Assembly: GCA_020247085.1 (NCBI GenBank)
Contig: JADCJJ010000270.1
Coordinates: 1 to 40,657 of the forward strand
DNA length: 40,657 bases
Direction: 5' to 3'
DNA from: Myxococcaceae bacterium
GTDB taxonomy: Bacteria; Myxococcota; Myxococcia; Myxococcales; Myxococcaceae
The position numbers were made by a program, and so were the translations under genes. Positions within the stretch are counted from its first letter, which is position 1, and each line of letters begins with the position of its first letter. The notes under the pieces were generated by a model. The model was given only the letters and a program-made list of their open reading frames with translations. It made no database searches and had not been told where the DNA came from. Of the stretch, positions 5,555 through 35,146 are shown piece after piece.

Positions 5555-8500
5555 TGCGCGCGCCCCTCACGGCCCTCTGCCTCGTCGCGCTCGCCGGCTG
5601 CGGGCGCACCGTCTCGTACCCGCGCGTCGACCCCTGCGTCTTCGACACCGACTGCCCCGACGGCCTGCGCTGCGTCAACCAGGTGTGCCGGGTGCTCGAC
5701 GAGTCCGACGGCGGGGCGCTGCGCGGCGGCAAGCGCTTCGGCGAGCGTTGCGACGGTGGCGCCGAGTGCGAGTCGGCCTTCTGTCTCGGCGGCCCCCAGG
5801 GCGCCTTCTGCACCGAGGCGTGCGCGGCCGACGGCGGCTGCGCGGTGGGCTACGCCTGTAAGCGCGTGCCGGACCCGGAGCGGCCCGACGCCGGGCGCGA
5901 CACCGCCCTCTGCGCGCTGCCCCAGCCGCTGCTGTGTCAGGGGTGCTCGCGTGACCTCGACTGCGGCGCCACCGGCGGCGACCGCTGCCTCGCGCTCGAC
6001 GGCGGACGCTTCTGCGGCCGCGACTGCACGTTCTCGGGCTGCCCCGCGCTCTACCGCTGCGAGCTCAAGCCCGACGGCGCGCGGCAGTGCGTGCCAGACG
6101 GACGCACCTGCGACTGCACGGCGCAGACGGTCGGCCTGGCGAAGGGCTGCCGCGGGCCGACGAACGCCTTCGGCCGCTGCGAGGGCAACCAGGTGTGCCA
6201 GCCCGACGGTGGCTTCACGCTCTGCGACGCCCCGCCGGCCCTCGAAGAGACGTGCAACGGCGTCGACGACGACTGCAATGGCCGCGTCGACGACTTCACG
6301 CCGCCCGAGTGCACCCGCGCGCTGGGCGGGCGCATCTGCCGCGGGGCGCAGGTGTGCCTGGCCACCGCCGGGCTCGTCTGTACCGCCCAGGCGCCCGAGG
6401 TCGAGGCCTGCAACGGCCGCGACGACGACTGCAACGGCGTGGTGGACGACGGCTTCGTCGACGCCCAGGGACGCTACCCACAGCTGGCGCACTGCGGCCG
6501 CTGCGCCAACGACTGCGCGAACATTCCCAACGCTACCCAGACGCGGTGTGACGAGGTCCAGGGGCGCTTCCGTTGCCGGGTGCTGGCCTGCGCGCCGGGC
6601 TTCTTCCCGTCAGCCGACGGCACCTTCTGTCAGGAGCTGCCCGACACCCTCTGTCGCGCCTGCACCGTCGACGCCGACTGCGTGGGGCCCCTCGCCCGGT
6701 GCCTGCTGCTCGACGGCCAGCGCGTCTGTGGGCGCGACTGCGGCCCGGCCTCGGCCTACGGCCCCGCCTGCCCGGCCGGCTACACGTGCCAGGCGGCCAC
6801 CCAGCAGTGCGTGCCGTCGACGAGCACCTGCACCTGCACGCCGCGCACGCTGAACGCCACGCGCTCGTGCAGCCTCATGGCCCCGACGAGCGGCCAGACG
6901 TGCCGGGGCTTCGAGACGTGTCGCGCGCCGGGCCCCTCATGGAGCGCCTGTGACGTCGAGTCGTTCAACCCTGAGATTTGCGACGGCCGCGACAACGACT
7001 GCGACGGGCAGGTCGACGAGGGCTTCCGCAACCAGGCGACGGGCCGCTACGAGGCGCTCGCGCACTGCGGGTTCTGCAACAACGACTGCTCGAAGCTCTG
7101 GTCGCCGGCGCTGCAGAAGACGAATGGCGTGTGCGACACCAGCCTCGCGCTCCCGCGCTGCGTGATGGGCCCGTGCCTCACCGAGACCGTCGGGGGCGTG
7201 ACGTTCGAGTTCGTCGACGTCAACCGCGAGCCGGCCGACGGCTGCGAGTGCCGACGCGTGCAAGGCAACCTCGCGACCGACCTGCCGGATCGCGCCCCCG
7301 GCGTGGGCGGCGCGGCGAGCTGGGTGGACGAGAACTGCGACGGCATCGACGGCGTGCAGGGCGACGCCATCTTCGTCTCGGCGACGGGCCCGGCGGTGGG
7401 CAACGGCTCCCGCACGGCGCCCTTCCGCTCGATCGCCCAGGGCCTGGCGGCGCTGGGGCCCTCGGGCAGGCGCTACGTGCTGGTGGCCCAGGGCCTGTAC
7501 CGCGAGAACGTGCGCCTCTCCGACGGGCAGCAGCTCTTCGGTGGCTACTCGACCGACTTCTTCAAGCGAGACCCGCTCCTGCACACCACCTTCATCGCCG
7601 GCGTGCAGCCGACGGCGCAGGCCTTCGCCGCGGTGCACATCGAGAGCGCGGGCCTCGGCGCCGTCGAGACGGTGGTGGCGGGCTTCACCCTCGTGGGGTG
7701 GGACGCGCCCCCCGCGGGCGTGGACGCTCCGGGCGAGGCCAGCGTCACGGTGTACCTCTTCGACACCGGGCCTCGCGTCGTCCTGTCGAGCAACGACGTG
7801 CTGGCCGGCCGCGGAGGGCAGGGCGGGAGCGGGCGCACCGGCGACCAGGGCTTCGGCCGGCAAACGTCCCCCGCGCTCAACGGCGGGCGCGGCGTCGACA
7901 GCGAGCACTTCCCCGCCGGCGACTGCACACCCTCGGCGCATCGCACCGGGGCGCCCGGCGGCCTCAACCCGCTGTGCCCCGGCGGCAACGCGCCGCGTGG
8001 TGGGAGCTCAGTGTGCCCCGTGTACACGATGGGCACGAACCTGGGCGTGCAGCAGGAATACGCCGGGCCGGCGCTGGGCAGCCGCAACGGGCGCGGTGGG
8101 TTCGACCGGACCTTCTCGATGCTGTCGCGCCCGTCGTGCAGCCAGGTGCAGGAGAGCGGCTACCCGAGCGCGATTCAGGGCAATGACGGGCAGGATGGCC
8201 TGCAGGGCCCCGACGGCGCGGGCGGCGTGGGCGGCGCCGGCGCCAGCGCCCCAGCCCGCTTCGGCAGCATCGTCACGAGGCGGTGGGTGCCCTCGCCCGT
8301 GGGGGCGGGCGCCGGGAGCGTCGGCGTCGTCGGCCAGCCCGGCGGCGGCGGCGGCGCCGGCGCGGGGGTGGTGAAGTTCACCGGCGGCGGGTGCCAGGCG
8401 TGGGAGATTGGCGCGAGCGGAGGAGGCGGTGGGGCGGGCGCCTGCGGCGGACAGGGCGGGGCGCCCGGCGCGCCCGGCGGTGCCTCCATCGCCGTCCTCG

Positions 8501-9878: not shown

Positions 9879-10077
9879 CACCGAGCTTGCACATAGCGGG
9901 CGCGGGGCGCCTTGTCGCCTGCGCTGAGGGCCCGGCGCCCGCCGGCTGGGGGGGCTTCGTCACGCCCGGCGATGCTCGCGTCCGTCCCGGGTGGACGCCG
10001 CGGCAAGAGATGGCGGGGCGGCGCCGGCGAGCAGGTCGGCCCCGAGCCGCCGTGCGCGGCCGCCGTGGGCCCGCTCG

Positions 10078-11529
10078 TCAGTCGACGGTCCGCAGCACCA
10101 GCGCGGCCTCCCGCGCCGTGACGGGCGCGTCGCCGCCGCGGAAGTAGGCCGGGTCGACGGGCTGGCCGTCGAGCTCGAGCTGGTAGTGCAGGTGCGGGCC
10201 GGTGCTGCGGCCGGTGTTGCCCGACTCCGAGAGCGGCTCGGCGGCGTTGACGTGCTGGCCGGTCATCACCAGCAGCTTGGAGTTGTGCAGGTAGGCGGTG
10301 GTGACGCCGTGGCCGTGGTCCACGATGACGAAGCGGCCGTTGACGGCGTCGTCTCCGGTGCGCACCACCGTGCCGGCGCCGGCCGAGTGAATGACGGTTC
10401 CCTCGGGCACCGGCAGGTCGACGCCGGTGTGCATGCGGGGCACCTTGAGGGTGGGGTGGTGCCTGGGCCCGAAGGGCGACGACACGCGGGTGCCCGGCGG
10501 GAGCGGCCAGCCCAGGCCGAAGGCCGTGGCGTAGGTGAGGGTCATCGCCGCGGGCGCCAGCGCCTCGCGGGCGCTGCCCGGGAGCGCGCGCCCCAGCGCC
10601 TCGAGCGTCGCGTTGGGCCCGGCGCGCTGCACCGCCGCCCTCGCCCGCGAGAGCCCGGCGAACAACGTGAGCGCCACCGCCTCGTCGCTGCCGACCTCGC
10701 GGCGCAGCGCCTCGACGAGCCGCGAGAGGTGCGCCGGCGTCGAGAGCGGCAGCTGGAGCGAGGCCGCCAGCCGGGTGGCCTCGTCACGCAGCGGCGGCGG
10801 CTGGCTGGTCCAGGCGACCCACGCGCCGCGCGAGAGCGAGGAGCCCTCGGTCGGGGCGGCCACGCGCGCCGAGACGGGCCAGGGGCGCCACTCGCTGGTG
10901 TCGGCGTCGGAGTCGGCCTGGGTGCGGAAGGCTGCCCACTCGCGCTCGTCGGCGCCCGTCAGCGGGTCCCCGGGGGCACGCCCCCGCGGCGGCGGCGGCG
11001 GCGCGCGCACCTGCCGCAGGTCGCTCGCCTGCCGGCGCCGGGCCGAGCGCCAGGCCTCGACGTCGGGGCCGCCGCGCCGCTCGAGCTCGGCCAGCCACTC
11101 GCCCTCGGGCACCAGCGCGCCCTGCTCGACGGTGAAGGCGAGCGCCCGGCAGTCGCCCTCGACGGCGCGCAGCTCGGTGAGGGTGAGGTCGATGATGGCG
11201 TTCTTCTCGAGCGCCGAGGGCACGCTGAGCCGCTCGTTCGCCCAGCGCACGTCGTAGACGAGCTCACCGTTGCCCACGATGAAGGTGCGCGGCTCGGCGG
11301 GCCGGCTGGCCACGTGCAGCCGCGCTTGCCCGAGGAGCGTCGCCGTCGTGTTGACGCGCACGCGAAGGTACTCGCCCCAGCGGCTGCCCAGGGCAGCGCG
11401 GCGGATACCCACCGGGCCGCAGCGCTCGTCGCCCGTGTGCCGCGTCGAGGGGCCCGCCGAGGGCACCAGGCGCGTCGTGTGGCCGCAGGCCGTCAGGAGC
11501 AGCACTCCCAGGGTGCACGCGCGCTGCAC
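10078..11529 (-). CDS. M23 (LytM-type) metallopeptidase, predicted lipoprotein
   Basis: The protein has 483 residues and a GTG start giving a short lipoprotein signal ending LLTAC (Cys15). Residues ~20-330 are a family-specific N-terminal region with a Pro-rich linker near 176-190. Residues ~345-470 form the M23 domain: GPRHHP, zinc ligands His367 and Asp371 (HTGVD), His415, and the HLH at 446-448. All catalytic and metal residues expected of an active endopeptidase are present. It should cleave peptidoglycan cross-bridges in the periplasm or, if an EnvC-like activator, act on the wall through a partner; the intact residues favour a true enzyme. It is divergent from the next gene, with an 82-bp gap. 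Confidence 0.93.
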   Translation of the reverse strand: MQRACTLGVLLLTACGHTTRLVPSAGPSTRHTGDERCGPVGIRRAALGSRWGEYLRVRVNTTATLLGQARLHVASRPAEPRTFIVGNGELVYDVRWANERLSVPSALEKNAIIDLTLTELRAVEGDCRALAFTVEQGALVPEGEWLAELERRGGPDVEAWRSARRRQASDLRQVRAPPPPPRGRAPGDPLTGADEREWAAFRTQADSDADTSEWRPWPVSARVAAPTEGSSLSRGAWVAWTSQPPPLRDEATRLAASLQLPLSTPAHLSRLVEALRREVGSDEAVALTLFAGLSRARAAVQRAGPNATLEALGRALPGSAREALAPAAMTLTYATAFGLGWPLPPGTRVSSPFGPRHHPTLKVPRMHTGVDLPVPEGTVIHSAGAGTVVRTGDDAVNGRFVIVDHGHGVTTAYLHNSKLLVMTGQHVNAAEPLSESGNTGRSTGPHLHYQLELDGQPVDPAYFRGGDAPVTAREAALVLRTVD

Positions 11530-23828: not shown

Positions 23829-23837
23829 CAAAAAGTC

Positions 23838-23866
23838 TTGACGACCCTATTTGAGCTGCATACCCT
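23838..23866 (+). promoter_or_regulatory. Predicted promoter of the pncB operon
   Basis: TTGACG (5 of 6 to consensus) at 23838-23843 and TACCCT (3 of 6) at 23861-23866 are separated by 17 bp. The predicted start would leave a leader of about 12 nt containing the GAGGTGG ribosome-binding site before the ATG at 23885. Confidence 0.5.
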
Positions 23867-23884: not shown

Positions 23885-25327
23885 ATGGGTGCCGGGCTGC
23901 TGATGACGGACGCGTACAAGTGCTCGATGGCCGAGGCGGGCTGGCCGCTGCGGGAAGAGACCTTCTCGAGCACGCACCGCCGGGGTGGGCTGCAGGTGGT
24001 GCCGTTCGACCTCGAGGCCGAGCTGCGGGCGCTGCTGCCGAGGGCCGACGCCGGCGACTGGGCCTTCCTCGCGGCGAGCGGGTACGAGCTGGGGGCGGGC
24101 GTCAAAGCAGCGGTGGCCCTGGCGGGCGAGGTGCGGGTGCGGGCGCTGCCGCGCTTCTCGGTCTTCAACGAGCGCGAGCCCCTCTTCACCGTCACCGGGC
24201 CCTCGGCGGTGGTGTCGTGGCTCGAGCCGCTGGTGCTGACGTGGAGCTACCGCATCCAGGTGGCGACGGTGGCAGTGCTGCGGCCCGACGAGCTGCCGGC
24301 GGCGGTCGCGACGGTGACGTGCGAGCGGCAGCGGCAGCTGGTGCTCGAGACGCTCGACGCGGTGGGCGTGCCCGCGCCGCCCATCACCGTCGATGCGTCA
24401 GGCTACGTCGAGCGGGTGGCGGCGCAGGCGCGGGCGCTGGTCGAGGTGGTGGGCGCTCCCGAGCGGCTCTTCGAGGTCGGGCTGCGCGCGGCGAGCTGCG
24501 TGGAGCAGCACCTGCTCGCGCTCGAGGGCTGCCGGGCGGCGGGCCTCACCCGCACCTCGCACGTGTACGGCGCGAGGCGGCTGGGCCTGACGCCGGTGGG
24601 GACGATGGGGCACGAGCACGTGCAGCGGTACGGCGCCGACGAGGCCGCCTTCCGCGCGATGGTCGAGCGCCGGCCGGGGAGCGCCAGCTTCCTCCTCGAC
24701 ACCTTCGACACCGTGCGCTCAGGCATCCCCACGGCGTACCGGCTCATCGCGGAGCGGCCGGCGGCGCGCGACTCGATTCGCTTCGACTCCGGCGACAAGG
24801 AGGCCCAGTACCGCTTCGCCGTCGCCGAGGCGCGGGCCCGAGGGCTCTTTCCGGTGATGATTCTGGAGGACGGCTTCGACGTGTCCCAGACGCGCCGCTT
24901 CGAGCAGCTGCGGCGAGAGCTCGGTTGGGCTGCCGAGGCGCAGGTCTACGGGTACGGCGGCTTCCTGGTGGCGCAGACCGCCGGTACGCCCCTCACCCGT
25001 GACCGCGTCTCGGCCGTCTACAAGCTGACGCAGACGGGCGCGCGGCCGTGCATGAAGTTCGGCAACGAGGCCGGCGCAGGCAAGCAGAGCATTCCCGGAC
25101 AGCCGGTGGTGTGGCGGCGCGTCGACGGCGCGGCGGGGCCCTTCGGCGTCGTCGGCCAGCACGGCGAGCCCGTCGCCGCCGGCTACCGGCTGCTCACCGG
25201 CGCGGCGCCCCTCGCCGCCGTCGACGTCGCCTCGGCGCGCGCCGCCCGCCCCGAGGACCTGCGCCTGGTGCATTCGCCGGCCACCCAGGCGCTCGTCGAC
25301 CAGCTCACCCGCGAGGCCTTCGGGTGA
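23885..25327 (+). CDS. pncB: Nicotinate (nicotinamide) phosphoribosyltransferase
   Basis: The protein has 480 residues. Family landmarks in order: MTDAYKCSMAEAG with ETFSSTHRRGG near the N-terminus, LTWSYRI, SHVYGARRLGLTPVGTMGHE, SFLLDTFDTVRSGIPTAY, IRFDSGD, MILEDGFD, YGYGGFLV and YKLTQTGARPCMKFGNEAGAGKQSIPG (key residues only listed). This enzyme joins nicotinate to PRPP to make nicotinate mononucleotide, the entry of Preiss-Handler NAD salvage; the TMGHE/DTFDT form favours nicotinate over nicotinamide. The ATG at 23885 has a good ribosome-binding site. Its TGA overlaps the GTG of the PP2C gene (GTGA), so this metabolic gene is translationally coupled to a signalling gene. Confidence 0.92.
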   Translation: MGAGLLMTDAYKCSMAEAGWPLREETFSSTHRRGGLQVVPFDLEAELRALLPRADAGDWAFLAASGYELGAGVKAAVALAGEVRVRALPRFSVFNEREPLFTVTGPSAVVSWLEPLVLTWSYRIQVATVAVLRPDELPAAVATVTCERQRQLVLETLDAVGVPAPPITVDASGYVERVAAQARALVEVVGAPERLFEVGLRAASCVEQHLLALEGCRAAGLTRTSHVYGARRLGLTPVGTMGHEHVQRYGADEAAFRAMVERRPGSASFLLDTFDTVRSGIPTAYRLIAERPAARDSIRFDSGDKEAQYRFAVAEARARGLFPVMILEDGFDVSQTRRFEQLRRELGWAAEAQVYGYGGFLVAQTAGTPLTRDRVSAVYKLTQTGARPCMKFGNEAGAGKQSIPGQPVVWRRVDGAAGPFGVVGQHGEPVAAGYRLLTGAAPLAAVDVASARAARPEDLRLVHSPATQALVDQLTREAFG

Positions 25328-26034
25328 GCGCCGCCACCGTCACGCAGGCCCGCACCGCGACCGTCACCGGCCGCGAGCACGTGCGCCTGGGCCGCAACAA
25401 CCAGGACGGCGTCTTCGTCGCTAGCCGCGACGGTGCCTGCGTGGCGGTGGTGACCGACGGCTGCTCGAGCGAGCCCTTCTCCGAGGTGGGCGCCCGCCTC
25501 GGTGCGCGCGCGCTGGCGACGATGACGGCGACCCTGGGCCACGTGCCGCTGGCCGCGCTGCCAGCCGTCGCGTTCGACCACCTCTCGACGTGGCTGTCGG
25601 CGCTGGTGCGCTCGGTCGAGGCCGACGACGCGCGCGCCGTGCTCTCTGGCTACGGCCTGTTCACGGTGCTGTGCGTGGTGCAGCGAGGCCCCGAGGCCGT
25701 CGTCTTCGGCAGCGGCGACGGCGCCGTCTTCGTCGACGGCGCGCTGACCCGGCTCTCGTCGGGCGACGACAACGCGCCCGCCTACCCGGGCTACCGGCTG
25801 CTCGGCCGCGAGGTGCCGCCGGTGACGCACCACCTGGGGCCGGCGCGGCGGGTGGCGCTGTGCACCGACGGGCTCGACGGCTTCGTCGCGGCCGGCGGCG
25901 TGGGCCCGCTCTTCGACGACGCCCTGGTGTGGCGGAACCCGGCGCACCTGCAGCGGCAGCTCAACGTGCTCCACGCGCGCGAGCGCTTCGCCGACGACGC
26001 CACCCTGGCGCTCCTCGCCACCGAGGCCCAGTGA
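25324..26034 (+). CDS. PP2C-type serine/threonine protein phosphatase
   Basis: This 236-residue protein has a GTG start overlapping the previous stop. Metal-binding PP2C motifs are present: GRNNQDG (Asp28), VVTDGCSS (Asp45-Gly46), GSGDGAVF, CTDGLDG and FADDATLALL. All acidic ligands expected in an active Mg/Mn phosphatase are retained. It closely matches the short PP2C of TerY-P/YegK-type signalling triads, which work with the kinase and VWA genes found next. No signal peptide, so cytoplasmic. Confidence 0.93.
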   Translation: MSAATVTQARTATVTGREHVRLGRNNQDGVFVASRDGACVAVVTDGCSSEPFSEVGARLGARALATMTATLGHVPLAALPAVAFDHLSTWLSALVRSVEADDARAVLSGYGLFTVLCVVQRGPEAVVFGSGDGAVFVDGALTRLSSGDDNAPAYPGYRLLGREVPPVTHHLGPARRVALCTDGLDGFVAAGGVGPLFDDALVWRNPAHLQRQLNVLHARERFADDATLALLATEAQ

Positions 26035-27815
26035 TGGACGTCTACCTCTCTACCGGACTCGCCCGGCTCACCGACGCCGACGTCCTCGGTGAGGGGGGAG
26101 AGGCGCGCGTGTTCCGCTTTCAGGGCCGGGCGGTGAAGGTCTTCCACCCGGTGGCGGTCAGAGACGCCGCCGGCCAGGCAGCGCGCGCGACGAAGCTCGC
26201 GAAGCTGGCCCGCTTTCCGGCGCGCCTGCCACCGGCGGTGCTGGGCCCGCTCGAGCTCGCCCGCGGCGCGCGGGGTGACGTCGTCGGCTTCGTGATGCGC
26301 CTCGTCGAGGGAGAAGACGCCAGCCGGCTCTCGCAGCGGCGCGCCCGCGAGGGCCGGGTTCCCAACGACCGCGTCACCGCGCTCTTCTCCGCGCTGGCCC
26401 GCACCCTGGGCGGGCTCCACGCGCAGGGCGTCGTGGTGGGGGACCTCAACGACGGCAACGTGCTGGTGCCGGCCGACGGGGGCGCGCCCTGCCTCATCGA
26501 CGCCGACTCGATGCAGTTCGACGGGCTGCCCTGCGCCGTCGGCCACGAGCGCTTCCTCGACCCCCGGCTCTACGGCGTCGACCTGACGGCGGCGCCGCGC
26601 TTCGACGCCGGCTCCGACTGGTACGCCTTCGCGGTGATGCTCTTCTCGTCGTGGCTCTACGTGCACCCCTTCGGCGGCACGCACCCGCGCCTGGGCACGT
26701 TGCTCCGCCGCGCCGAGGCTGGCCACTCGGTGCTGCGCGACGACGTGGTGGCGCCGCGCGTCGCCGCGTCGTGGAGGACCCTGCCCGACGACGCGCTGCA
26801 CTGGTTCCGCGGCGTCTTCGAGGACGGGCAGCGCGCCCCGCCGCCGCTGACGCTGTGGCGCACCGCGTTCTCGGTCTGCGCATGCGGCGTCGAGCACGCC
26901 CGCCCGGCGTGCCCCACCTGTCAAGCGCTGGGGCCGCTCTCGACGCGGCCCGCGCTGCGCGTGAAGGGGCGGTGCACCGCGCGGGTGCTCCGGCAGACGA
27001 CGGGGCGCGTGGTGGCGGCGGCGATGCAGGGGGGCGTTCGCCTCGTCATCGAGCAGGACGGCGCCCTCCGTCGCGAGGACGGCGGCGTGGTGCTCGAGCG
27101 CCCGCTGGGACCCGGAGAGCGCGCCGTCATCGCCGGCGCCTCGACGTGGCTCGTTGACCGCCGCGGCGGCCTCACCCGCGTCGAGCATGGCCGCGCCGTC
27201 GAGCGGGCTCAGACGAGCGTGGCTCCGGGAGGGCCCCTGCTGGCCGCGTCCACCACCGCGACGTACCGCGCCGAGCACGAGTGGCTCGTCGACCAGGTGA
27301 CGGGGGCCCGCGTCGGCCAGGTGCTCGAGGGCCAGACGTGGGTGTGGACCGGCGAGCGCCTGGGCCTCGGCTTCTACCGGGCGGGCGGGGTGACGGTGGC
27401 GTTCCTGCTGCGCGCCGGCCGGCCTGGCCTCAAGCAGCTGCCCGACGTCGGCTGGACTGGCCGCGTCGTCTCGGCGCACGCCGCCTTCGACGCTGGCCAC
27501 GCGTTGCTCACCGTGACCACCGAGACGGGCGCGAGAGACGTGGTGCGGCGCTGGCTATTCTCCGATTCGGGGGCGCTCCTCGGCGCCTCGCCCGATGGCC
27601 CCCGCGGCCACGCGGCGCTGCTGGGAGGCCGCGTCGTCGTCGGCACCGACGCCGGGCTCGTGTCGCTGTCCAACTCGGCCGGGGTGCTCGCCGAGGGCAC
27701 GTGCTTCACCGACACCCAGCCCTTCGTGAGCGCGCAGGACGAGCTCCTGCCCCAGCCCGACGGCAGCCTCGTCGTCGTCGGCGCCAGAGACGTCGTCCAG
27801 CTGTCGCTGTCGTAG
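26034..27815 (+). CDS. YegI-like protein kinase fused to a zinc ribbon and predicted beta-propeller
   Basis: The protein has 593 residues. Residues ~12-270 are a divergent kinase: glycine loop GEGGEARVF, Lys35 (AVKVF), catalytic loop GDLNDGNVLV with Asp137 and Asn142, and IDADS in place of DFG (Asp156). The GDxNxxN and DxDS wording is that of kinases in TerY-P type triads rather than Hanks kinases. Cys282, Cys284, Cys293 and Cys296 (CACG ... CPTC) form a small zinc ribbon. Residues ~310-593 are repeated beta strands (WLVDRRGGL, WVWTGERLGL, VVVGTDAGLVSL) suggesting a propeller. Start overlaps the PP2C stop (TGATG). Probably phosphorylates a partner that the PP2C dephosphorylates. Confidence 0.9.
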   Translation: MDVYLSTGLARLTDADVLGEGGEARVFRFQGRAVKVFHPVAVRDAAGQAARATKLAKLARFPARLPPAVLGPLELARGARGDVVGFVMRLVEGEDASRLSQRRAREGRVPNDRVTALFSALARTLGGLHAQGVVVGDLNDGNVLVPADGGAPCLIDADSMQFDGLPCAVGHERFLDPRLYGVDLTAAPRFDAGSDWYAFAVMLFSSWLYVHPFGGTHPRLGTLLRRAEAGHSVLRDDVVAPRVAASWRTLPDDALHWFRGVFEDGQRAPPPLTLWRTAFSVCACGVEHARPACPTCQALGPLSTRPALRVKGRCTARVLRQTTGRVVAAAMQGGVRLVIEQDGALRREDGGVVLERPLGPGERAVIAGASTWLVDRRGGLTRVEHGRAVERAQTSVAPGGPLLAASTTATYRAEHEWLVDQVTGARVGQVLEGQTWVWTGERLGLGFYRAGGVTVAFLLRAGRPGLKQLPDVGWTGRVVSAHAAFDAGHALLTVTTETGARDVVRRWLFSDSGALLGASPDGPRGHAALLGGRVVVGTDAGLVSLSNSAGVLAEGTCFTDTQPFVSAQDELLPQPDGSLVVVGARDVVQLSLS

Positions 27816-27837
27816 TCCCACCCCACCGGAGGTGCCC

Positions 27838-28806
27838 ATGTTGCCGTTGCCAGACTTCTACGAGCCCAGGCAGGTGTCCCAGCTGTACCTCGAGCGCGCC
27901 GGGCTGGTGGCCGACGCCGGCGAGGCGTACGCGAAGCGGCACCGAGTCTCGCCTTCGGGTGCTGACCGCTTCCGCGTCGCGGCCTTCGGCATCGACGTGC
28001 AGGTGGGCTTCTGCACGCCCGGCGCGTCGCTCTTCGTGCCGGGGGCCGTCGAGGACACCACGCGCACCGTCGAGTGGCTGTACCGCAACCTCGACAAGGT
28101 GACGTCGCTGTTCTTCTCGCTCGACACGCACCGCATGTTCCAGATCTTCCACCCCGCCTGGTGGGTCGACGAGAAGGGCCAGCACCCGCCGCCGCTGACG
28201 CCCATCTTCCACGAAGAGGTGCGCGCCGGCCGGTGGACGGCGGTGGCCCACCCGCGCGAGTCGCTCGAGTACGTGAAGAAGCTCGAGGCCACCGGCAAGT
28301 ACGTGCTGACGGTGTGGCCGTACCACACGCTGCTCGGCGGCCTGTCGCACGCGCTGGTGCCCGCGATGATGGAGGCCTCGCTCTTCCACGCCGCGGCGCG
28401 CAAGCACCAGACGCACTTCGAGACGAAGGGCACGCACGCGATGACCGAGAACTACTCGGTGCTGTCGCCCGAGGTGACGGAGCTGTCGGGGCAGGTCGTG
28501 GGCGCCTTCAACACGCCCTTCTTCAAGATGCTGATGGAGCACGACCGTGTCTACGTCTTCGGCCAGGCCAAGAGCCACTGCGTGCGCTCGACGCTCAACG
28601 ACATTCAGGCCCACGTGCTGACGCAGGACCCGGCGCTGGCGACGAAGATCTGGATCCTCGAGGACGCGATGAGCCCGGTGCCCGCCCCGTCGCTCGACCC
28701 GCTGCCGGCGCACCTCGACTTCCCGCGCATCGCCGACGACGCGCTCGCCCAGTGGCGCAAGGCCGGCATGAAGGTGGTGAAGACGACCGACCCGGTCGTG
28801 CTCTGA
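27838..28806 (+). CDS. Nicotinamidase-like isochorismatase-fold hydrolase
   Basis: The protein has 322 residues; the ATG at 27838 follows GGAGG by 6 nt and is preferred to a GTG at 27832. The cysteine-hydrolase triad is visible: Asp53 (GIDVQVGF), Lys197 (ETKGTH) and Cys248 (GQAKSHCVRST). The metal ligands typical of true nicotinamidases are also present: Asp96 and His98 (SLDTHRMF), His105, and His163 in TVWPYH. This favours nicotinamide to nicotinate hydrolysis over isochorismate. It is ~100 residues longer than PncA, mostly at the ends, so substrate remains inferred. With the phosphoribosyltransferase upstream it would complete nicotinamide salvage. 22 bp after the kinase gene. Confidence 0.85.
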   Translation: MLPLPDFYEPRQVSQLYLERAGLVADAGEAYAKRHRVSPSGADRFRVAAFGIDVQVGFCTPGASLFVPGAVEDTTRTVEWLYRNLDKVTSLFFSLDTHRMFQIFHPAWWVDEKGQHPPPLTPIFHEEVRAGRWTAVAHPRESLEYVKKLEATGKYVLTVWPYHTLLGGLSHALVPAMMEASLFHAAARKHQTHFETKGTHAMTENYSVLSPEVTELSGQVVGAFNTPFFKMLMEHDRVYVFGQAKSHCVRSTLNDIQAHVLTQDPALATKIWILEDAMSPVPAPSLDPLPAHLDFPRIADDALAQWRKAGMKVVKTTDPVVL

Positions 28807-28950
28807 AGCCGGCGCGCCGCCGGTGTCCGGCCCCGCCGCCGTGACGCCGCGCGCGCCCCGTCCACCGGCCCCGGCGCGTGTCCGGCGGCCAGCCCCTGCA
28901 GCGCAGCCGTTCCCCAACAGCCGCGGCCCTGCGCCGCGAAGGGAAGCCCC

Positions 28951-29742
28951 ATGTCGAAGCGAGACGATGACGTGTCGAAGTCCCTCTCCAGCGCGGTGGT
29001 GAGCGGCGTCTTGTCACCGCAGACATCGAGCCTGGTGACGGGCCACCTCGGGCCCCTGGTGCTGGCCGGCGCCGCGGGCAAGGCGCTCGAAGACCTGACC
29101 GCGAGCGACGTGACGCTGGTGACGCTGCTGGTCGACGCCAGCGGCTCCATCGCCGACCGCGGGCTCGAGCAGGCCGTGCGCGAGGGCCAGAACGCGCTGC
29201 TCGACGCCTTCGCAGGGGCGAAGGAGAAGGACTCGGTGCTGCTGGCGCTGTGGACGTTCAACGACGAGCAGAAGGTGCTGCACGCGTACGTGCCTGTCGA
29301 CGAGGCGACCCGGCTCGACGCGCGCTCGTACCGGGGCCGCGGCGCGACGCGGCTGTACGACACCTGGTGTGACGCCCTCACCGCGAACGTGGCCTACGCG
29401 CAGCGCTTGCGAGATGGCGGTACGCCGACGCGCTCCATCGTGGTGGTGCTGACGGATGGAGAGGACGTCGGCTCGAAGCGCGGCAGCCGCGAGTGCGCCG
29501 CGCTGTCGAGAGACCTGCTCGCCAGCGAGCTCTTCACCCTGGCCTTCGTCGGCGTCGGCAAGGACGTCGACTTCGGGCTCATCGCCACGGCCATGGGCGT
29601 GCCGCCCGGCTGCGTCCACGTGCAGCGCGACGCCACCGCCGCGGGCCTGCGCCGCACCTTTCAGCTCGTCTCGCGGTCGGCCATTCGCGCCAGCCAGGGC
29701 CGCGTCGCGCCGGGCGTCAACGCCGGCTTCTTTGCGCCCTGA
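28951..29742 (+). CDS. VWA domain protein with intact MIDAS (TerY-like)
   Basis: This 263-residue protein is preceded by AAGGGA and a 144-bp gap. The VWA fold spans about 50-245. All three MIDAS elements are there: DASGS (Asp62), Thr133 in GRGATRLYD, and Asp169 in VLTDGED. It therefore should bind a divalent metal and a partner protein. TerY/YegL-type VWA proteins accompany a PP2C and a YegI-like kinase, exactly the genes found upstream. The N-terminal 45 residues are Ser-rich and could hold phosphorylation sites (inference). No signal peptide. Confidence 0.9.
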   Translation: MSKRDDDVSKSLSSAVVSGVLSPQTSSLVTGHLGPLVLAGAAGKALEDLTASDVTLVTLLVDASGSIADRGLEQAVREGQNALLDAFAGAKEKDSVLLALWTFNDEQKVLHAYVPVDEATRLDARSYRGRGATRLYDTWCDALTANVAYAQRLRDGGTPTRSIVVVLTDGEDVGSKRGSRECAALSRDLLASELFTLAFVGVGKDVDFGLIATAMGVPPGCVHVQRDATAAGLRRTFQLVSRSAIRASQGRVAPGVNAGFFAP

Positions 29743-31093: not shown

Positions 31094-31312
31094 CGACGTG
31101 CGTCTTTTCGAGACCGGGCGTGCAGTGGGGCGCGGAACGAGGAGCTCGAGCGCACGCTGGCCGCGCGGATGAAGGCGAACGAGGGCCTCTCTCGCACCGG
31201 TGGCAATTTGTCCCCGCTCGGGCGCGCCAGACGACACTGACGGGTGCTGTCCAGCCTCCCCGCCAGCCAGAAGACTTGGGCGCTGTCCGTCCCTGCGGGA
31301 GGATGTGCGCCG

Positions 31313-31855
31313 ATGGCGGACGAGCGGACCCAACGCTTCAACGAGCTCTACCGCCGCTTCGCGCCCACCGTCTTCCGTCGCGCGGCCGCGCTGCTGGGCG
31401 GTGACGAGGCCGCCGCGCAGGACATCACGCAAGAGGTCTTCCTCGGTTACTTCAAGAACGAGGGCCGGCTGCGAGGTGAGGCGAGCCCCTTCACCGTGCT
31501 GTACCAGATGGCCACCTACCAGGCGGTCGACCGGCTGCGGTACCGGGCGCGGTGGCACGGCACGCTCAGGGCCCTGCCCGACGACGAGGCCGCGCTCGAC
31601 GAGGTGAGCCAGCTCCCCGCGGCGGAGTCGGCGAACGCCCGCGTCGACGCCATGCACGACCTGGCGCTGCTGACGAAGGGCGAAGACGAGCGGACACTCA
31701 CCTGCGCGGTGCTGTATTTCGTCGAGGGCTACACCACCGAAGAGGTGGCGCAGTCACTCGACCTCTCGCGCAAGACGGTGGGCCGGGCATTGGCGGCCTT
31801 CGCCGAGCGAGCCAACAAACGCGCCGAGCGCTTCACCGTGAAAGGCACCACATGA
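31313..31855 (+). CDS. ECF-type sigma factor heading a caspase operon
   Basis: The protein has 180 residues; the ATG at 31313 follows GGGAGGA by about 10 nt. Region 2 is residues ~8-75 (RFAPTVFRRAAALLGGDEAA, QDITQEVF, then YQMATYQAVDRLR) and region 4 is ~120-170 (YFVEGYTTEEVAQSLDLSRK). It is followed by a membrane anti-sigma-like gene with an ATGA overlap, the usual arrangement for an ECF sigma/anti-sigma pair. The operon continues with a caspase-like gene. Confidence 0.92.
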   Translation: MADERTQRFNELYRRFAPTVFRRAAALLGGDEAAAQDITQEVFLGYFKNEGRLRGEASPFTVLYQMATYQAVDRLRYRARWHGTLRALPDDEAALDEVSQLPAAESANARVDAMHDLALLTKGEDERTLTCAVLYFVEGYTTEEVAQSLDLSRKTVGRALAAFAERANKRAERFTVKGTT

Positions 31856-32586
31856 GCGCGGCCCGCCGCCCACCGCCCGACGCGCTGCTCGAGCGCTATC
31901 TGGCGAACGACCTCTCCCCCGAGGCCCGTGCAGCCATCGACGCCGCGCTGGACGAGTCACCCGAGGTGCGGGCACGCCTCGAGGCCTTGCGCGCCGACAG
32001 CGCAGCCTTTCTCGTCAAGCACCCGCCCGGCCCCGTCGCCGCTCGCCTCGAGCCGACGCGTCGACGGTGGTCGGTGTGGGTTCCTCTCGTGCTCGCCTCG
32101 ACCGCGGCGGCCGTGCTCGTCGTGCTGCGAGCACCTGACGAGGAAGAGTCGACGACGAAGGGCGCCATCACCATGACGGCGTATCGACAGACAGCCGACG
32201 GGGGCGCCGAGCCGCTCCTGGCCGGCGCGCGCGTGATGCCTGGAGACAAGGTGCGCTTCAGGGTGACGGCGCCCGACGGGTATGTCGCCATTCTCTCGCG
32301 AGACGGCGCCGGCACCGTGTCGACCTACTTCCCGTACGGTGGAGCGACGGCGGCGGCGTTCGACTCGAGGCAGCCGCTCCTCCCCATGGCCATCGCGCTC
32401 GACGAGGTCGAGGGGCGCGAGCTCGTCTGGGCCGTGCATGGGCAGGCGGCGTTCTCCTTGTCGCCGCTGGTGAAGCAGCTCGAGGCCGGGAAAGCGCCCT
32501 CGGGCCCCGGGCTCTCCGTCACCGCGCTCGGCTGGGAGAAGCCCGCCACACGCGCGCCCCGCGATGACCCGAGCGCGGCCGAGTGA
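31852..32586 (+). CDS. Membrane anti-sigma-like protein without zinc ligands, DUF4384-like outer domain
   Basis: The protein has 244 residues. Residues ~10-50 (LLERYLANDLSPEARAAIDA, then DESPEVRARLEALRAD) follow the anti-sigma domain layout, but the Cys pair of the usual CPECR is replaced by Ser/Pro-Glu-Val, so zinc cannot be bound in the normal way. One transmembrane helix lies at ~72-92. The exported part (~100-235), with RFRVTAPDGYVAILSRD and STYFPYGG, resembles DUF4384 domains often linked to caspase-like proteins. Probably holds the upstream sigma factor at the membrane until a signal arrives; that role is inferred from gene order and layout. Confidence 0.8.
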   Translation: MSAARRPPPDALLERYLANDLSPEARAAIDAALDESPEVRARLEALRADSAAFLVKHPPGPVAARLEPTRRRWSVWVPLVLASTAAAVLVVLRAPDEEESTTKGAITMTAYRQTADGGAEPLLAGARVMPGDKVRFRVTAPDGYVAILSRDGAGTVSTYFPYGGATAAAFDSRQPLLPMAIALDEVEGRELVWAVHGQAAFSLSPLVKQLEAGKAPSGPGLSVTALGWEKPATRAPRDDPSAAE

Positions 32587-33965
32587 GCCTGGCGCCAGCA
32601 CGCCGACGCCACACCCCCGCGGCGCCCCAGCCCCGCCTTCGCGAGGCGTTCGCCTGGTGCTACGGCAGCGCGGTGCAGCAGTGTCTCCCGCTCCTGCTGG
32701 TTCTCGTGTTCAGCGCCGGTGCGGCGAGGGCCGAGGAGCGCTTCGCCCTCGTCATCGGCGCCAACACCGGTTGGGAGCTCGACAAGCCCCTCAAGCACGC
32801 CCAGTCCGACGCCGAGCGCATGGCCTCGGTGCTCGTCGAACTCGGCCGCTTCAGGAAAGACCGCGTCACCGTGCTGCTCGACCCTGATACGAGCGTGGTG
32901 CGGGCGCGGCTCGACGCGCTCTCCATGCTCGCCGCGAAGGCGACGGGCCCAACGCTCGTCTTCGTCTACTACTCGGGCCACTCCGACAGCCGCACGTTGC
33001 ACCTGCGGGGAACGCCAGCGCTCGGACTCGAGGAGCTCTCGACGCGCTTGCGCGACGTCCAGGCCACCGTCCGCGTCGGCGTCATCGATGCGTGCCAGGC
33101 CGGCGCGATTCTGGGCACGAAGGGCGGCACCCCGGTGGCGGCGTTTGACGTGGAGGTGGTCGACGAGCTCACGGTGCGCGGTCTCGCCGTGCTGACGTCG
33201 AGCGGCGCCGACGAGCTGTCACAAGAGACGCGCGCGCTCCAGGGTTCCGTCTTCACGCACCACTTCGTCTCGGGCCTGCGCGGCGCGGCGGACACGGACC
33301 AGAACGGCCAGGTGACGCTCTCGGAGTCGTATCTCTATGCGCATGGACGCACCGAGGCGGACACCGCGGCGACGCTGGTGCCGCAGAAGCCGGCGTTCCG
33401 GTACGAGCTCAAGGGTGAAGGCGAGCTGGTGATGAGCTGGCCGGCCGAAGCGAGCGCGAAGCTGGTGCTGCCGAAGGGCCCCTCGTCGCGCGTGGTGGTG
33501 GTGGACGAGGCCGAGAAGCTGGTGGTGGCCGAGGGGCGCTCAGACGAGGCGCGCGAGGTGATGGTGGCGCTGGTGCCAGGCCGCTACGTGGTGAAGCAGG
33601 TGCTGCCCGAGACGCTCAACGTGGCCCCGGTGACGCTCGGCGCCGGCAGCCGGTTGAGCCTCGCTTCGCTCTCGTTCACCAGCACGCCCCGTCGCGGAGG
33701 CTTCGTGAAGGGCAGCGAGGTGGTGGGCGCGGTGGTCGAACACCCGCGGGGGGCCTTCTGGTTCGTCGCCAGCGCCGCGGTGGTGGCCGGCGTGGCGTGG
33801 GCGGTGACGGGTGGCATGACGTTGAGTTCGCGCAGCCAGTACGCGCAGCTCGGCCGGCCCTTCACCGTGGACGAGTCGCGCACGCTCAGTGGCTGGGCGC
33901 TTGCGTCTGACATCACCATGGGCCTCACCGCCGCCCTCGCGCTCGGAGCGGTCTTCACATGGTGA
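32583..33965 (+). CDS. Exported caspase-like (C14) protease with membrane-anchored C-terminus
   Basis: The protein has 460 residues from the GTG overlapping the previous stop (GTGA). An internal GTG at 32673 gives a cleaner signal peptide (QQCLPLLLVLVFSAGAARA) and may be the real start. The caspase-like p20 domain spans ~52-230 with ERFALVIGAN, catalytic His133 (YYSGHSDS) and Cys171 (IDACQAG). Residues 237-248 are a canonical EF-hand loop (DTDQNGQVTLSE), so calcium control is possible. Residues ~290-385 are beta-rich, and two hydrophobic helices end the protein. The catalytic dyad is intact, so it should be an active metacaspase-type peptidase facing the periplasm. Confidence 0.92.
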   Translation: MSLAPARRRHTPAAPQPRLREAFAWCYGSAVQQCLPLLLVLVFSAGAARAEERFALVIGANTGWELDKPLKHAQSDAERMASVLVELGRFRKDRVTVLLDPDTSVVRARLDALSMLAAKATGPTLVFVYYSGHSDSRTLHLRGTPALGLEELSTRLRDVQATVRVGVIDACQAGAILGTKGGTPVAAFDVEVVDELTVRGLAVLTSSGADELSQETRALQGSVFTHHFVSGLRGAADTDQNGQVTLSESYLYAHGRTEADTAATLVPQKPAFRYELKGEGELVMSWPAEASAKLVLPKGPSSRVVVVDEAEKLVVAEGRSDEAREVMVALVPGRYVVKQVLPETLNVAPVTLGAGSRLSLASLSFTSTPRRGGFVKGSEVVGAVVEHPRGAFWFVASAAVVAGVAWAVTGGMTLSSRSQYAQLGRPFTVDESRTLSGWALASDITMGLTAALALGAVFTW

Positions 33966-35146
33966 AGTGGCTTCTCCTTCTCGCGCTCGGCGCCTGCACG
34001 CTGTCGAACCCGTTCGGCGTCGAGTGCGTGTCCGACGTGAACTGCGGCTGTGCGAACTGCTGCATCGGCTACCGGTGCATTGCGGTGGGGAGCCAGGCGC
34101 TCGACGCAGGCCTGGCCATGGATGCGGGCACGCTCGTGTGGGAGGTCTCCACGCTCGCAGGCGGCACGCGTGGCACGAACGACGGCACCGGCGATGAGGC
34201 CCGATTCGATGCGCCCACGGCCCTCGCGCTCGACGAGACCGGCGTGCTGTTCGTGCTCGACTCGAACAACCACTGCATTCGCCGGGTCGACGCGCAGGGC
34301 GTGGTGACGACGGCGTTCCCCACGGTGTTTCCGTGCGGAGGCACCGGCCTCGACGCGCCTGGCGGCCTCGCGCTCGGCTCCGACGGCACGCTCTACGTGA
34401 GCGACACCGGGCGAAACTGCGTCCGCGCCATCACCGCCAGCGGAACGGCGAGCGTGCTCGCGGGCTCCTGCTCCCGTGACTCGAGCGGCTGCTTCGCGTC
34501 ACCCCCGCGCTTCGCGCAGCCAGCGGGCCTCGCGTGGTCGCCACCCTTCCTCTTCGTCACCGAGACGGCTGCGAACCGCGTGCGGTGGATTCGCCCCGAG
34601 ACTGGAGCGGTGGGGACGCTGGCAGGCCAGGGCTTCGGCACGACGGTGCTCGCCGACGGCGTGTGCTCGTTCAACGCCTCGTGCACGGGCTCCGCGGCGG
34701 GCGCCACCTTCAACGGCCCTGCAGGCGTCGCGGTCGGTGCTCCCGGCGTGCTCTTCGTCGCCGACGTGTACAACTGCGCGCTGCGCCGCCTCACCTGGGA
34801 GCCAGGCTGCACCGTGCAGACGGTGGGGCGCTCCAGCTGCCCGATGTTCACGTCGGAGGACACGAGCAGCCTCCTTCGCAACCCCTTCGCCGTCACCGCG
34901 GGCCTCGGGCCCCTCGCCGGGAGCGCCGTGGTGGCCGACACCGGCAACCACCGCATCGCCGCGGTGAGCGCGACCGGCCTCATCTCCGTGCTGGCCGGGA
35001 GTCGCCAGCGCGGCGCCGTCGACGGAGTTGGCGCAGAGGCGCAGTTCAGCGCACCAGCGGGCCTCGTGATGAGCGCCTCTGGCCGCATCTTCGTCGCCGA
35101 CACCTCGAACAACCGCATTCGGGTGCTGACGCCGGTGACGCGATGA
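33959..35146 (+). CDS. NHL-repeat lipoprotein (copy 1)
   Basis: This 395-residue protein overlaps the caspase gene by 7 nt. Lipobox ALGAC (Cys13) is followed by a Cys-rich head (VNCGCANCCIGYRC). Residues ~60-395 hold about six NHL-type beta-propeller blades, each with a (F/L)xxPxGLALxxxGxLYVxDTxNxxIRR pattern, for instance LDAPGGLALGSDGTLYVSDT and VFVADVYNCALRR-like blocks. NHL propellers bind proteins or glycans. Membrane-bound partner of the caspase operon by position; its ligand is unknown. Confidence 0.9.
   Translation: MVKWLLLLALGACTLSNPFGVECVSDVNCGCANCCIGYRCIAVGSQALDAGLAMDAGTLVWEVSTLAGGTRGTNDGTGDEARFDAPTALALDETGVLFVLDSNNHCIRRVDAQGVVTTAFPTVFPCGGTGLDAPGGLALGSDGTLYVSDTGRNCVRAITASGTASVLAGSCSRDSSGCFASPPRFAQPAGLAWSPPFLFVTETAANRVRWIRPETGAVGTLAGQGFGTTVLADGVCSFNASCTGSAAGATFNGPAGVAVGAPGVLFVADVYNCALRRLTWEPGCTVQTVGRSSCPMFTSEDTSSLLRNPFAVTAGLGPLAGSAVVADTGNHRIAAVSATGLISVLAGSRQRGAVDGVGAEAQFSAPAGLVMSASGRIFVADTSNNRIRVLTPVTR

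Follow-up and report, generated by a model that had tools for sequence, protein, structure and literature searches.

Why should the genes of nicotinamide adenine dinucleotide (NAD) salvage be interleaved with those of a protein kinase, a protein phosphatase and a von Willebrand factor A (VWA) protein? This question is raised by five intact genes, all on the + strand at positions 23885-29742 of a 40,657-nucleotide stretch of DNA from a Myxococcaceae bacterium (assembly GCA_020247085.1, contig JADCJJ010000270.1; the whole stretch is referred to here as the window). They encode a divergent nicotinate phosphoribosyltransferase (NAPRT*), a PP2C-type phosphatase, a Ser/Thr kinase (KIN), a nicotinamidase-like hydrolase (HYD) and a VWA protein. 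In two papers (PMC11090510, PMC4978471), the TerY-P triad is described as a TerY-like VWA protein, a PP2C phosphatase and a YegI-like kinase with a zinc ribbon, with yegI, pphC and yegL as the E. coli representatives. Triads of this kind are common and their targets poorly understood, and the presence of HYD in an NAD regulon would provide both a concrete candidate substrate and a signal. The locus is probably a nicotinamide-to-NAD salvage operon of the regulon of NrtR that possesses its own phospho-signalling triad, and it would thereby connect Ser/Thr phosphorylation with the bacterial supply of NAD. No description of a triad combined with nicotinamidase or NAD salvage was found in the open-access literature, whose coverage is incomplete, so that this absence is no proof of novelty.

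Organization and conservation of the cassette

The genes NAPRT* and PP2C overlap by 4 bp (GTGA) and PP2C and KIN by 1 bp (TGATG), while the best start of HYD is the ATG at 27838, 22 bp past the KIN stop (an in-frame GTG is present at 27832), and VWA starts 144 bp downstream of HYD (Table 1). These coordinates agree with a sequence-only reading of the window, which had described five genes on one strand, the first three coupled through GTGA and TGATG and the fourth 22 bp on. That reading had also proposed a search of other genomes for the five-gene order, which is in fact kept in 19 genomes from 10 genera, all in the window's GTDB family: 15 loci have it complete, and in the other 4 genomes it is divided between contig ends.

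Table 1. Features of the five-gene locus in the window
Feature	Position	Strand	Remarks
21-bp palindrome AAAAAGTCTTGACGACCCTAT, predicted NrtR operator	23830-23850	.	overlaps TTGACG -35-like hexamer; position weight matrix (PWM) score 33.6
NAPRT*, divergent nicotinate phosphoribosyltransferase	23885-25327	+	480 aa; TIGR01513 E 2e-34, below cut-off
PP2C-type protein phosphatase	25324-26034	+	GTG start; PF13672 E 2e-17
KIN, YegI-like Ser/Thr kinase, C-terminal zinc ribbon and conserved C-terminal domain	26034-27815	+	hhalign to YegI
HYD, nicotinamidase-like cysteine hydrolase	27838-28806	+	322 aa; AlphaFold model and conserved residues
VWA, von Willebrand factor A protein, MIDAS DxSxS..T..D intact	28951-29742	+	PF00092 E 3e-6

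The unit that is invariant across genomes is PP2C-KIN-HYD-VWA, larger in scope than the pairing first noted and partly different from it, and NAPRT* joined it in the window's family. Outside the window's order, cassettes with HYD1 are present in two Myxococcota families (L101-L104), and cassettes with a divergent HYD occur in Polyangia, in Cyanobacteria (L173, L183, L185, L196) and in metagenome-assembled genomes (MAGs) labelled Acidobacteriota, Elusimicrobiota and Riflebacteria, although some of the MAG phylum labels may be binning errors. Wherever all three genes are seen, HYD lies between KIN and VWA; the exceptions are rearranged or truncated loci, L158 among them. What looks like a KIN-HYD fusion in L204 was discarded: conservation is lost at the end of the kinase, in the manner of a frameshift, and HYD begins anew at an internal Met.

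According to the sequence-only reading, relatives in which the salvage genes and the triad are routinely separate would refute the proposed link between them. Such a separation is found superficially, since about 70 genomes of the window's family carry NAPRT*-HYD without the inserted triad; however, nearly all of these possess a second cassette elsewhere, PP2C-KIN-HYD2-VWA, with its own HYD and adjoining nrtR. Complete genomes typically have one kinase of the KIN type. HYD is also encountered in other settings: in many Nostocales and Oscillatoriales (L186-L203) the gene is solitary, with neither triad nor NAD gene linked to it, and in five Thermoanaerobaculia/Acidobacteria MAGs (L168, L170, L172, L174, L180) it is convergent with NadE and NAPRT, with no triad.

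HYD as a probable divergent nicotinamidase

The window HYD yields zero matches to Pfam or NCBIfam, PF00857 included, and the name "nicotinamidase-like" given to it in the sequence-only reading therefore called for a structural test. A sequence profile of HYD compared with the PDB gave a conotoxin as its sole match, judged to be due to chance. In a fold search with the AlphaFold (AF2) model of HYD (pLDDT 89.8), the nine top PDB matches are all nicotinamidases, including those of A. baumannii (E 1e-9), yeast (Pnc1) and M. tuberculosis (PncA), and other cysteine hydrolases rank lower. Residues D53, D96, H98, H163, K197 and C248 are invariant across both HYD subfamilies; by analogy with PncA and Pnc1, they are assigned to the D-K-C catalytic triad and the D/H/H metal site. 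Distant members of the HYD group also give a match to the nicotinamidase model NF008623 (E 1e-8). The name thus holds, despite lying beyond the reach of family models. HYD shares with PncA and Pnc1 the fold, the catalytic triad and the metal site, and differs from them in its length (322-342 aa versus about 200), in falling outside PF00857 and the NCBIfam cut-offs, and in being the operon partner of a kinase module.

Genomic distribution points in the same direction. HYD and canonical PncA never occur together in 137 genomes of the window's order, where PncA is present in 22 and HYD is known in 95; by a conservative count, PncA is found in 0/87 genomes with HYD and in 22/50 others (Fisher 6e-12, a value that, as with the other Fisher test below, overstates significance since taxa are not independent). 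G086, a member of the window's family, lacks HYD and NAPRT* and carries PncA and a canonical NAPRT, as would be expected if one set had displaced the other. A search of the window's own genome revealed no canonical NAPRT and no canonical PncA, and its only other isochorismatase-like protein lacks, by eye, the D-x-H metal motif. HYD would fill the apparent gap left by the missing PncA in many myxobacteria. The window's own genome encodes NadA, and salvage is therefore not its sole route to NAD. Taken together with the presence of HYD beside NAPRTs of different families, the fold, the residues and the distribution make it likely that HYD acts as a nicotinamidase.

NAPRT*, which is found in 88/145 genomes of the window's order, is similarly distant from its relatives: it has no Pfam match and scores under all NCBIfam NAPRT cut-offs (TIGR01513, 119 versus 297 bits). 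It nonetheless gives a PDB profile match to E. faecalis NAPRT (E 1.7e-19), and the top Foldseek match of its AF2 model is the NAPRT structure 4mzy (E 3.5e-19). Full-length superposition onto 4mzy is poor (root-mean-square deviation 21, low TM-score), which in this model is probably a matter of domain placement. The motifs GTMGHEH, LLDTxDT and R-DSGxK are invariant; the type II phosphoribosyltransferase fold and the catalytic motifs of nicotinate phosphoribosyltransferase are present even though the sequence cut-offs are not reached.

Probable control by NrtR

All five-gene loci in which the stretch ahead of NAPRT* is available have there a 21-bp palindrome, with the consensus AAAGAGTCTTGACGACTCTTT, that overlaps the -35 position. 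The palindrome of the window scores 33.6 in a PWM scan, the second-best site in the 40-kb window scoring 7.7, and its 15-base core, with at most one mismatch, has a single match in the 7.36-Mb genome. A strict sigma-70 scan upstream of the window operon detected no promoter; the -35 and -10 elements were read by eye only, and are clearer in relatives (TTGACG-17-TATAAC). Presence of the palindrome coincides with that of a low-scoring NrtR subtype, NrtR-B (24/0/0/15 over 39 genomes, Fisher 4e-11, a p-value that is optimistic because the subtype was defined from the search's own match list and the genomes are related), and this agreement includes a three-against-three split within one genus. A sister palindrome, ATAGTGT-N7-ACACTAT, has 51 matches against 1 in a reversed control, and in the divergent cassettes it nearly always precedes nrtR, PP2C or HYD; the frame AxAGxGTC-N5-GACxCTxT is common to both palindromes. 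These sequence patterns make it very probable that NrtR controls the operon.

Gene neighbourhoods are consistent with such control. An NrtR or NAD-salvage gene lies within about 8 kb in 19/24 full-length cassette loci of an all-genome scan, the types of the linked genes having been verified by Pfam and NCBIfam on representatives. These genes encode NrtR (PF21906 NrtR_WHD plus NUDIX), NAPRTs of the TIGR01513 and PncB types, NadE, PRPP synthetase, PncA and a DraG-like hydrolase, and the link between signalling and salvage recurs with three NAPRT families. Examples of gene order include NAPRT-Prs-PncA-PP2C-KIN-HYD-VWA-NrtR (L102), cassette-NAPRT-NrtR (L139) and NAPRT*-PP2C-KIN-HYD-VWA-NrtR (L046), while in genera g1, g4 and g13 NrtR is found about 18-20 kb from the operon. 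The link to NAD suspected in the sequence-only reading is thus strongly supported as a regulon, through recurring NAD neighbours and common operator palindromes; as a response to stress or attack it finds no specific support (see below).

Some neighbourhoods have features of their own. In the arrangement NAPRT-Prs-NadE-NrtR-HYD-PP2C-KIN-HYD-VWA of G008 (L106), two HYD paralogues (6042-7067 and 10057-11082) flank PP2C-KIN. The cyanobacterial cassettes L185 and L196 carry an ADP-ribosylglycohydrolase (PF03747, DraG-like) between PP2C and KIN (L185:5194-5964, L196:4329-5138).

The signalling triad

The phosphatase scores above its Pfam cut-off (PF13672, 63.7 versus 24 bits), matches E. coli PphC in profile comparison (E 2e-8) and has invariant aspartates at D28, D45, D132, D182, D224 and D225. 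KIN falls below the Pfam threshold (19.9 versus 31.7 bits); its hhalign comparison with E. coli YegI (probability 98.8, E 1e-16) gives an alignment that extends into the zinc ribbon, K35, D137, N142 and D156 being invariant and the CxC..CxxC motif near-invariant. VWA is above its cut-off (PF00092, 28.1 versus 23.8 bits), with invariant metal ion-dependent adhesion site (MIDAS) residues D62, S64, S66, T133 and D169; homology to YegL was tried and is unsupported by profile comparison (probability 0.5). In pairwise distance correlations over 53 loci the highest values are those of HYD-VWA and KIN-PP2C (0.92 each), which suggests two sub-modules, although part of these correlations may come from the common split between cassette types.

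The window had been proposed to hold a TerY-P type triad, and a YegI-homologous zinc-ribbon kinase, a PphC-homologous PP2C and a MIDAS-VWA protein are indeed all present in one operon. Two of the three proteins, the kinase and the phosphatase, are thus firmly identified as TerY-P components, and the third is so at the MIDAS-VWA level only, a specific similarity of VWA to YegL lacking profile support. The locus further differs from TerY-P systems in that a hydrolase gene, placed between those of the kinase and the VWA protein, is a constant fourth member, and in its NAD-salvage/NrtR context in place of tellurite or restriction genes. No Ter or DNA-processing/restriction gene was found among ten flanking proteins of the window; such genes are an association and not a strict requirement of TerY-P.

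Two other known systems offer comparisons. As in described NrtR regulons (PMC6800001), the regulator has NrtR_WHD and NUDIX domains, the palindromic operator lies over the promoter and, in the divergent cassettes, upstream of nrtR itself, and the genes include those of NAPRT, NadE and PRPP synthetase; here, unlike there, the regulon takes in a kinase-phosphatase-VWA cassette and a divergent nicotinamidase. The nearest described system is the Nudix-regulator/vWA neighbourhood of the ARG-centric systems (PMC9503650), which also associate a Nudix-HTH repressor, a vWA protein and ADP-ribose chemistry, but are centred on ADP-ribosylglycohydrolase and rhodanese-type phosphatases and have no described kinase, PP2C or nicotinamidase.

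A model and its alternatives

Sequence data show an operon, a conserved cassette, the co-variation of regulator and operator, and a nicotinamidase fold with its catalytic residues in HYD. In the mechanism proposed here, NAD-consuming reactions would release nicotinamide and ADP-ribose, and the latter, the known effector of NrtR, a family of Nudix-related regulators of NAD metabolism (PMC6800001), would relieve NrtR from the palindrome at 23830-23850. HYD would then deamidate nicotinamide to nicotinate, which NAPRT* would convert to nicotinate mononucleotide. KIN and PP2C would function as an opposed pair, and VWA, which co-varies with HYD, would be the adaptor by way of which phosphorylation sets the activity of HYD and possibly that of NAPRT* too. 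The best-supported step is the control of the cassettes by NrtR, because of operator co-variation and the placement of the sister palindrome. Phospho-control through VWA, suggested by the order of the genes, by their co-variation and by what is known of the chemistry of the protein families, can be put forward tentatively. The same degree of caution applies to the wider proposal of a widespread NAD-homeostasis module, in which a divergent nicotinamidase may be reversibly phosphorylated, and so controlled, by means of a YegI-type kinase, its PP2C and a VWA adaptor, the transcription of the module being governed by the ADP-ribose sensor NrtR. If true, a TerY-P-like triad would have a defined target in cell physiology, and a bacterial nicotinamidase would prove to be phospho-regulated.

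Several observations weigh against this model. The single NrtR of the window's own genome sits on another contig, C420, so that linkage there rests on the operator and on relatives in which NrtR is beside the operon or about 18-20 kb off; neither a triad nor an NAD gene is linked to HYD in many Cyanobacteria; and G042 and G092 have NAPRT-HYD-NrtR yet zero triad kinases, which indicates that the triad is dispensable for salvage. Furthermore, canonical PncA adjoins the cassettes of L102 and L165, where HYD would be redundant or act on another amide. The latter case, together with the absence of a family-level match and some 100 extra residues, would suit a HYD that belongs to a related kind of amidohydrolase and whose substrate is a different metabolite, derived from NAD or involved in repair, with the triad still in the NrtR regulon. 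This explanation is unlikely in view of the ranking of nicotinamidases above other cysteine hydrolases in the nine top structural matches, the full D-K-C plus D/H/H set, the zero overlap with PncA in the window's order and the adjacency of HYD to NAPRTs of different families.

Salvage genes without a triad would also be expected if the triad were a switch for stress in general that NrtR simply regulates together with salvage, and if its kinase acted on other proteins, such as those of ADP-ribosylation or DNA processing, with neither HYD nor NAPRT* as a substrate. The ties of TerY-P triads elsewhere to restriction and stress systems (PMC11090510) and the DraG-like hydrolase inside two cyanobacterial cassettes favour such a switch; however, the position of HYD between KIN and VWA is the same in different phyla, HYD evolves in parallel with VWA, and no Ter, restriction or helicase gene is among the ten flanking proteins scanned, so that this possibility appears somewhat improbable. 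A module against phage or toxin that restores NAD after a NAD-depleting attack, a restoration already suggested in the sequence-only reading, could draw on the ability of salvage to refill NAD and on the fact that defence systems include kinases with this broad type of fold (weak matches to PD-T4-6 and MkoA). PADLOC applied to the window gave such weak kinase-fold matches and one PP2C match, and matched no described defence architecture; no defence genes and no NADase, nuclease or mobile genes were found beside the locus, whose family-wide conservation and ordinary metabolic regulator and operator make a defensive role very unlikely. Finally, that most of the window's family has NAPRT*-HYD without an insertion could evoke a chance neighbourhood, or two housekeeping genes between which others were passively inserted, a view that is hardly credible and already contradicted by conservation, since these genes occur together independently, in an unchanged order and with the same operators, in many families and in MAGs assigned to other phyla.

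Other genes of note

Next to nrtR, a protein was observed in which a nicotinamide mononucleotide adenylyltransferase-like domain (PRK01153, E 4e-12) is fused to an S-adenosylmethionine-dependent methyltransferase domain, an unusual fusion in an NAD context; it is encoded after NrtR on contig C420 of the window's own genome (L213:5350-6726, - strand) and also at L216:10528-11943. Downstream of the operon, window positions 31244-35146 carry in a row genes for an extracytoplasmic function (ECF) sigma factor, a caspase-domain protein (PF00656) and an NHL-repeat protein, with an apparent membrane or anti-sigma-like gene between them.

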